From Nitrososphaerota archaeon (GTDB lineage: Archaea; Thermoproteota; Nitrososphaeria; Conexivisphaerales; UBA164), in assembly GCA_009903795.1 (NCBI GenBank), contig WYER01000002.1:1-62920 (forward strand): a stretch of DNA of 62,920 nt, in the 5' to 3' direction. Positions 42,239 to 44,265 of this stretch are shown piece by piece. The notes under the pieces are model-generated. The model searched no databases. It saw only the letters and a program-made list of their open reading frames with translations, and was not told the origin of the DNA. Every line of letters starts with the position of its first letter. The stretch's first letter is position 1. The translations under genes and the position numbers were made by a program.

Positions 42239-42601
42239 TTATCTTCTATTAGTTCCACAGCTTACTACTTTATTGTTCGAAAGCGTATAGCACGGCAAAC
42301 CAAGCTCACTTAATTTCCTCGCAAGTTCAAGGTCTAACGTAAAAACAGGATACCTAGTTTTTAAAGCAAGTTTTAAAATATCCTCGTCAGCATTTTTGTT
42401 AAGCTCTTCAAAACTTTCGATCCTTAGCAACTTGTAGTTTTTAATTATTTTCTTTTTATTGGAAAGTCTTTCAAGCTCAACTATGACAGATTTTGGCACG
42501 GTTATTTCAGGCATACCTATTTCATCTACTATACGCTCTAACACGTTACTTGGTTTTTCTAAAAGGTATATTATAAAGCTTGTATCGAATATGACCTTCA
42601 T
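42239..42601 (-). CDS. PIN-domain protein (archaeal COG1412 type)
   Basis: A 120-residue PIN domain. The acidic residues are D in VIFDTSFIIYLL, E in VIVELERL, D in NADEDILKLA and D in VFTLDLELARKL, which together would bind the metals for RNA cutting. I chose the ATG at 42601, which overlaps the aIF2 gamma stop codon by four bases (ATGA), over an upstream in-frame ATG inside that gene. In archaea this type of PIN protein often follows aIF2 gamma, and a role in rRNA or translation is more likely than a toxin. No antitoxin gene is adjacent. Confidence 0.88.
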   Translation of the reverse strand: MKVIFDTSFIIYLLEKPSNVLERIVDEIGMPEITVPKSVIVELERLSNKKKIIKNYKLLRIESFEELNKNADEDILKLALKTRYPVFTLDLELARKLSELGLPCYTLSNNKVVSCGTNRR

Positions 42602-44265
42602 ATAATAATTCCAGAACCAGCAAGGCGCCATCTGTCAGATACCATTCTGCTTAACGCTACCCTGTCACCGCGTAACGCGACAGCTGGTTTCTTCAGTTTT
42701 ATCCTCATAATATCTTTTGTAACTTCTTCCACAACTCCTAAGTTTGTCATTGTGCCTATGTTCAACCTTAAATTTTCTCCAGGTCTCAGCTTTTCATACC
42801 TTACCATTTCCTTCAAGCCTATTACGTATTCAAATAATTCATATTTTATAACGATTTCATTAACAGGGTCAGGCAAAAATCCTACCTTTGCTACGTAGTT
42901 TCCAACCATTACATCGTTTTTGGTAAATATCGGATCAAGCTTGGTACCTATTGCTATAAGTCCACCCGGCAGGACTTCATCTACAAGCCCACTTGAAGTA
43001 GATAAGCTAACCACCTCAGTAACTATTGGTTGATACGTACCCTTTACAGGTATGCCTGGTTTTATCTCTATCTTATCGCCAACCCTTAATTTTCCCTGTT
43101 TCAATGATCCGCCAAGTACTCCTCCTTTGAGGTCAGAAATTTTAGTGCCTGGTTTATTTATGTCAAAAGACCTCAAAACTTGCATGAGAGGTGGTGCGTT
43201 AGGATCTCTTGAAGGAGTAGGTATGTATTCTTCTATAGCTTGTAAAAGGGCGTCAATGTTCAGTTTTTTCTGGGCTGAAACCGGAATTATTGGTACCTGA
43301 TTATAGCCAAAGGAACTCAAAAACTCAACGATCTTGTTATAGTTATTCAAAGCCTGGTTATAAGTTACAAGGTCTACCTTGTTCTGAACAACAACGATGT
43401 TCTTGATTCCTATCATTTTAAGCGCCTGAAGGTGTTCCCTGGTCTGTGGCTGCGGTACGGGTTCATTTGCCGCTATTACTAGGAGAGAACCGTCCATGAG
43501 AGCCGCCCCGCTGAGCATTACTGACATCAAGCTTTCATGTCCTGGCGAGTCTATGAAACTTACAACCCGTCTCAGCTTGGCTTCTCCTTTTAGACAGTTG
43601 CCATCTGTGTTAAATTTTTCTGGTTCAGGAAGCTCAGGACATTCGTAAATAGCAGCATCGGCATATCCTATTTTGATCGTAATTCCCCTTTTGAGTTCTT
43701 CGCTGTGCATGCTCGTCCATTTGCCTGTAATTGCTTCAACCAGCGTTGTATTATGAGAGATTATACCGTGTGAAGAAATAAAATTATGGAAAAACGGTAC
43801 GCTTAAATCAAAAAGATAACCTTCATAATTTTTGGTTATATTTTTTACGACTTTATCTAGTATAAGCTTCTTCCCTTCATAAATTAATATCGATTCATCA
43901 GGTTTAATTGTCTGAGCTTTTTTCCAATGATCCTTTACAAGCAATTTATGTACAGGTGTTACGGATATGGATCTACCGGTTTCGGTTTCTATTGATATTA
44001 TCTTTCCTCTGTACTTCTGGAGATATACAAAACCACGGCTTTTTCTCAAATCTTTTCCGAAAAGAGAAACAGAAGACACAGGAAGCTCAAAAAGCTTTTC
44101 ATTATAAGCTTTTTTGAAATCATAACCTATGATTTCTTTTAATATTTCGCGTCCTGTGTAAAAAGTGTCTCCAATATACGCGCTTTCATCTAAAGTAAGG
44201 CACTTACCATGATCAACGTGACCTGCAGTACCTATGTTAACTTCTGGCTGTTTTGGAATTTTCAA
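42598..44265 (-). CDS. eif2g: Translation initiation factor aIF2 subunit gamma, with intein
   Basis: A 555-residue precursor of the GTPase that brings initiator tRNA to the small ribosomal subunit. The host protein of about 404 residues is complete: P-loop AGHVDHGK-TT (split by the intein after Lys21), GITIKIGYADA, DSPGHESLMS (G3), QNKVDLV (G4), PVSAQKK (G5), then domains II and III. The zinc knuckle, often four Cys, has only two here (YECPELPE and GNCL). The intein at residues 22-172 must splice out for GTP binding. The PIN gene follows with a four-base overlap. Confidence 0.95.
   Translation of the reverse strand: MKIPKQPEVNIGTAGHVDHGKCLTLDESAYIGDTFYTGREILKEIIGYDFKKAYNEKLFELPVSSVSLFGKDLRKSRGFVYLQKYRGKIISIETETGRSISVTPVHKLLVKDHWKKAQTIKPDESILIYEGKKLILDKVVKNITKNYEGYLFDLSVPFFHNFISSHGIISHNTTLVEAITGKWTSMHSEELKRGITIKIGYADAAIYECPELPEPEKFNTDGNCLKGEAKLRRVVSFIDSPGHESLMSVMLSGAALMDGSLLVIAANEPVPQPQTREHLQALKMIGIKNIVVVQNKVDLVTYNQALNNYNKIVEFLSSFGYNQVPIIPVSAQKKLNIDALLQAIEEYIPTPSRDPNAPPLMQVLRSFDINKPGTKISDLKGGVLGGSLKQGKLRVGDKIEIKPGIPVKGTYQPIVTEVVSLSTSSGLVDEVLPGGLIAIGTKLDPIFTKNDVMVGNYVAKVGFLPDPVNEIVIKYELFEYVIGLKEMVRYEKLRPGENLRLNIGTMTNLGVVEEVTKDIMRIKLKKPAVALRGDRVALSRMVSDRWRLAGSGIII
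43750..44202 (-). other. Mini-intein (151 residues) in the aIF2 gamma P-loop
   Basis: The intein begins with Cys (CLTLDESAY) after Lys21 of the P-loop and ends SHGIISHN before Thr173. Splicing blocks can be seen: block A with Cys1, block B VTPVHKLL (T-x-x-H at 82-85), block F YLFDLSVPFFHNFIS with its His at 139, and block G with His150-Asn151. The +1 residue is Thr. There is no room for a homing endonuclease, so it is a mini-intein of the class with Cys1. Removal restores GHVDHGKTTL. Confidence 0.93.

Follow-up and report, generated by a model that had tools for sequence, protein, structure and literature searches.

An open reading frame that divides the GTP-binding loop of a translation initiation factor raises the questions of what the inserted segment is, whether a working factor can be made from such a gene, and how the insert arrived and has stayed. 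In the stretch of DNA analysed here (62,920 nucleotides, referred to as the window) the aIF2 gamma precursor gene lies at 42598..44265 on the minus strand. It has a TTG start and encodes 555 amino acids with the insert and 404 after predicted splicing. Outside the insert the product scores above the cut-offs of the aIF2 gamma profiles NF003077 (557 bits) and TIGR03680 (545 bits). Alignments to aIF2 gamma proteins of solved structure extend over both flanks of the cut, and those proteins run uninterrupted across K^T. The insert occupies 43750..44202 (minus strand; 151 amino acids from Cys1 to Asn151, precursor residues 22-172) and falls between Lys21 and Thr173, inside the P-loop GHVDHGK^TTL. 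The N-extein (44203..44265, minus strand) contributes 21 amino acids, the last of which are the P-loop residues GHVDHGK. The C-extein (42601..43749, minus strand; 383 amino acids) starts TTLVEAITG, its Thr+1 being both the predicted nucleophile and the P-loop threonine. The predicted ligated peptide of the spliced factor spans GHVDHGKTTLVEAITGK. The GC content is 32% in the intein versus 42% in the extein. Two other frames in the window were picked out by eye: a possible PIN-domain gene (42239-42631, minus strand), which shares 34 bases with the 3' end of the aIF2 gamma gene, and, at the edge of the contig (1-960, plus strand), a TnpB/OrfB-like transposase-associated frame.

The insert carries Cys1, a block B T82-P-V-H85 (43948..43959, minus strand) and, read from the sequence and the alignment, blocks F/G with H139-N-F and H150-N151 (43750..43788, minus strand), flanked by K-1 and Thr+1. 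P83 and H85 are invariant in an alignment of 13 inteins from the same site, as is Cys1, a cysteine being demanded there by the sampling pattern. The profile scores exceed their cut-offs for Pfam Intein_splicing (54.4 bits, cut-off 35.8) and for NCBIfam intein_Nterm (41.3, cut-off 24.5) and intein_Cterm (20.1, cut-off 15.6). In the Pfam scan of the window intein Intein_splicing was the sole match and no homing endonuclease domain was found, and at 151 amino acids there is no space for one. An AlphaFold model built with the 13 aligned inteins (mean pLDDT 92.2, pTM 0.85) is predicted to adopt the HINT fold, and the best solved structures returned by Foldseek are the inteins TvoVMA, CDC21-1, Pho RadA and KlbA. 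The top fold match is the TvoVMA intein of the V/A-ATPase catalytic subunit (E 1.1e-11, TM 0.90), although this has a different host protein and is only 25% identical to the window intein. The VMA inteins, including TvoVMA, and the CDC21-1 intein are also P-loop insertions. The Pho RadA intein is the best single-sequence PDB match (4e2u, E 5e-11; TM 0.87-0.89) and, with that of Tsi RadA, is a mini-intein within the Walker A motif with class 1 residues; it differs in that the host is a recombinase ATPase, identity is 23-26% and conditional splicing has been shown for RadA. Together the profile scores, the fold model and the alignments of solved aIF2 gamma proteins confirm 43750-44202 (minus strand) as a predicted class 1 mini-intein interrupting the aIF2 gamma P-loop. 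The initial annotation had proposed just such an element, without an endonuclease domain; its coordinates and length agree exactly with the translated reading frame, the junction and splicing residues are all as it described them, and its figure of 404 residues for the spliced product is correct.

Three other MAGs of the genus have the same in-frame insert, in precursors that are 92, 84 and 74% identical over their full length, and this rules out chance or misassembly as its source. One aIF2 gamma gene was found in the window genome (G000), which is 92% complete, and its insert is the only Intein_splicing match in that genome. No second or intein-free copy was found there, and the idea of two copies, one a pseudogene, was rejected on the finding of a single gene. 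A related reading holds that the intein is dead, the gene being a broken copy and the cell relying on something else. Nothing beyond the incompleteness of the genome speaks for this, and with the frame open, all splicing residues in place, purifying selection on both extein and intein and no second copy, it appears extremely improbable. In translational GTPases the Walker A lysine and threonine hold the GTP phosphates and magnesium, and since it is these residues that flank the cut, the precursor should not bind GTP. With no second aIF2 gamma found, an unspliced product would leave the cell without the factor; as the sole such gene found, the interrupted copy presumably encodes an intein that splices, and we infer that its default is efficient splicing. 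Its path is most likely that of standard class 1 splicing, in which an acyl shift at Cys1 would be followed by transesterification to Thr+1 and then by cyclisation of Asn151. This would restore GHVDHGKTTL, and GTP binding and the delivery of initiator tRNA would be possible only from that point on. Constitutive splicing of this kind would explain everything seen in this analysis.

Inteins at this codon are not confined to the window genome. The junction pattern NIGxxGHVDxGK|Cys, run over 84,980 species genomes, returned 33 records with an intein at the same aIF2 gamma codon; because the pattern detects only Cys1 inteins behind NIGxxGHVDxGK, this and the other counts are lower bounds. All 33 have an aIF2-gamma-like N-terminus, and wherever the stored DNA extends far enough, the frame continues into aIF2 gamma. 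The majority are Nitrososphaeria/Thaumarchaeota MAGs (UBA164, Conexivisphaerales, Geothermarchaeota, Candidatus Scotarchaeum), the other hosts being Nanosalinarum J07AB56 and single records from Woesearchaeota and Bathyarchaeota. Within the class the pattern found 23 of 400 genomes positive (families f1, f2, f4, f6 and f11), and a reversed control pattern gave zero matches in the same 400. Intein-free relatives, with an empty site, exist in genus g2, in families f3, f5 and f7 and elsewhere; f7 comprises the ammonia oxidisers, identified by sequence only, in which the pattern revealed no intein. This patchy spread amounts to 7 changes on the host tree. By its closest named relatives the window is placed in Conexivisphaerales, near UBA164, and its source is taken to be an uncultured archaeon resembling that order.

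The inteins at this site fall into mini forms of 146-166 amino acids, which occur in several lineages, two intermediates (206 amino acids in G013 and 257 in G035) and full-length forms of 573-641 amino acids. LAGLIDADG_3 scored above cut-off in all five full-length inteins scanned, and no above-cut-off match to it was seen in the mini and intermediate forms scanned. A modelled member of 640 amino acids (pLDDT 88.6) matches the endonuclease inteins TliVMA, PI-PkoII and PI-PfuI; the likeness to TliVMA and PI-PkoII includes an endonuclease domain that only the large aIF2 gamma relatives possess and that is missing from the window intein. The block F histidine is substituted in some full-length relatives, so equal splicing of all members is not required. 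Weak, below-cut-off helix-turn-helix matches flank the LAGLIDADG domain in full-length aIF2 gamma inteins (L069, residues 166-203 and 522-562). Elsewhere, open frames of 2282-2653 amino acids (G404:C120, G016:C11, G405:C87) have several Intein_splicing matches each, suggestive of multi-intein proteins.

Two comparisons show how the large inteins move. The intein DNA of G145 and G199 is 95.2% identical (dS 0.13) versus 77.9% for the extein (dS 1.28), the identity falling sharply and exactly at the insertion point. Between G198 and G199 it is the extein protein that is alike (93% identical) and the intein that is not (41.5%). Both patterns would be expected if an endonuclease intein homes and is replaced, and the large forms thus bear clear sequence signs of being mobile, with recent homing. 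The mini-inteins of family f1, to which the window genome belongs, present a different picture. Genera g1, g3 and g4, which have the intein, group as a clade both in the quick host tree used here (support 98) and in the intein tree (98/89), and the sister genus of this host clade, g2, has an empty site. Within g1, g3 and g4 the branching orders of intein and host are not identical, the branches concerned being weakly supported. Between G000 and G001 the DNA identity is nearly equal in intein (91.2%) and extein (90.0%), and this, with the matching clades, argues for vertical descent of the mini-intein. By a simple count (Nei-Gojobori) dN/dS for the same pair is 0.24 in the intein versus 0.07 in the extein, so the constraint on the intein is only moderate; over the longer distance from G000 to G007, amino acid identity is 35% in the intein versus 75% in the extein. 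Most likely the f1 mini-intein was already in place before g1, g3 and g4 split and has come down by inheritance under moderate purifying selection, and its absence from g2 indicates that it is dispensable at that scale. The window intein belongs to a family, here called aIF2gamma-a, whose large members have a homing endonuclease. In the window lineage that endonuclease was probably lost to give the mini form, which has been handed down vertically since then in no fewer than three genera of the host family.

A second initiation GTPase offers a possible source. Inteins have been described in eIF5B, the only initiation-factor host in a eukaryotic survey (PMC5784728). The aIF5B/IF2 inteins resemble the window intein in sitting at the homologous codon, GHVDxGK^T, of a translation-initiation GTPase; they differ in having a paralogous host and, in this order, in belonging to another intein lineage. 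That the aIF2 gamma intein came by a jump from aIF5B would fit the many Thermoproteota in which the aIF5B site is filled, and the at least six genomes (G016, G018, G035, G041, G045, G047) in which both genes have an intein at this P-loop codon. The intein tree, drawn from 28 distinct aIF2 gamma, 20 aIF5B and 4 other inteins, has weakly supported deep branches, and the AU test does not reject a common origin for the P-loop inteins of aIF2 gamma and aIF5B taken together (p 0.467). However, the same test rejects a clade that would unite the window group with its own order's aIF5B inteins (AU p 0.002), which disposes of a recent jump from those inteins and places the window intein, on this tree, outside the aIF5B lineage of its order. 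That the aIF5B of the window genome itself has no intein also counts against a jump; an ancient one may have occurred. Overall, an origin in aIF5B seems unlikely. In those six doubly interrupted genomes (at L047, L050, L051, L111, L114) the aIF2 gamma and aIF5B genes lie no more than a few kb apart. Further aIF5B inteins at GHVDHGK^T, mini and longer, were seen in Thermoproteota families f37, f46, f74 and f84 (L121-L130). In the same tree 25 of the 28 aIF2 gamma inteins, including the Nanohaloarchaea and Woesearchaeota copies, form one clade (99/97). The three Geothermarchaeota copies (g23) stand apart on a long branch and may represent a separate lineage; placing all 28 in one clade survives the AU test (p 0.136), so that a single origin is neither shown nor rejected. 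The account as a whole, that of a cis-splicing class 1 mini-intein of the aIF2gamma-a family in a single aIF2 gamma gene, its endonuclease lost and its descent vertical since, is held to be highly probable.

Why an intein without an endonuclease should stay is a separate matter. It may be a purely selfish relic, a neutral leftover that persists only because its precise deletion from within a P-loop codon seldom happens. This reading concerns retention and is compatible with the account above; the patchy distribution with its 7 changes, the homing relatives and the mini forms in several lineages all favour it, and we consider it somewhat likely. Sequence cannot separate it from retention for use, however, since persistence in g1, g3 and g4 fits both. 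The alternative, close to the control of translation start suggested in the initial annotation, is a conditional switch, in which the intein would be slow or dependent on a cue (temperature, redox or salt) in its native exteins and would set the amount of active aIF2 gamma, gating translation start. The Pyrococcus/Thermococcus RadA mini-inteins, which rank near the top in both structure and sequence comparisons, likewise sit in a P-loop, and their native exteins block splicing until warmed, so that gating does occur at P-loop intein sites (PMC5790916). The keeping of an endonuclease-free intein across three genera under purifying selection also agrees with a switch. Against this, splicing is obligatory for any intein of an essential gene present once, and conserved splicing residues therefore require no regulation to explain them; the window intein is missing from g2, it evolves fast overall, and no cue-sensing feature was identified. 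On balance a switch of this kind is unlikely. The fuller proposal, in which a domesticated mini-intein acts as a post-translational gate, with precursor accumulating and splicing only under suitable conditions to set the supply of the initiator-tRNA carrier and global translation, is very unlikely.

The initial annotation knew of no intein described in aIF2 gamma. A search limited to openly accessible papers found no mention of one and so does not contradict this, and two intein reviews consulted name no initiation factor as a host; aIF2 gamma is likely to be a novel host site. The genome search that the annotation had called for, carried out with the junction pattern, shows that the window intein is not unique, 33 records sharing its codon. 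The probable novelty lies in the host protein and in the series from mobile to fixed at one codon, the mechanism of protein splicing itself being ordinary. In canonical archaeal initiation aIF2 gamma carries the initiator tRNA, and with the intein in the P-loop of this carrier, splicing would be a precondition for an active factor. One codon of one essential gene holds homing endonuclease inteins, intermediates of 206 and 257 amino acids and mini-inteins that appear to be vertically kept, and this series therefore offers a good natural test of whether endonuclease-free inteins are kept by drift or by use.
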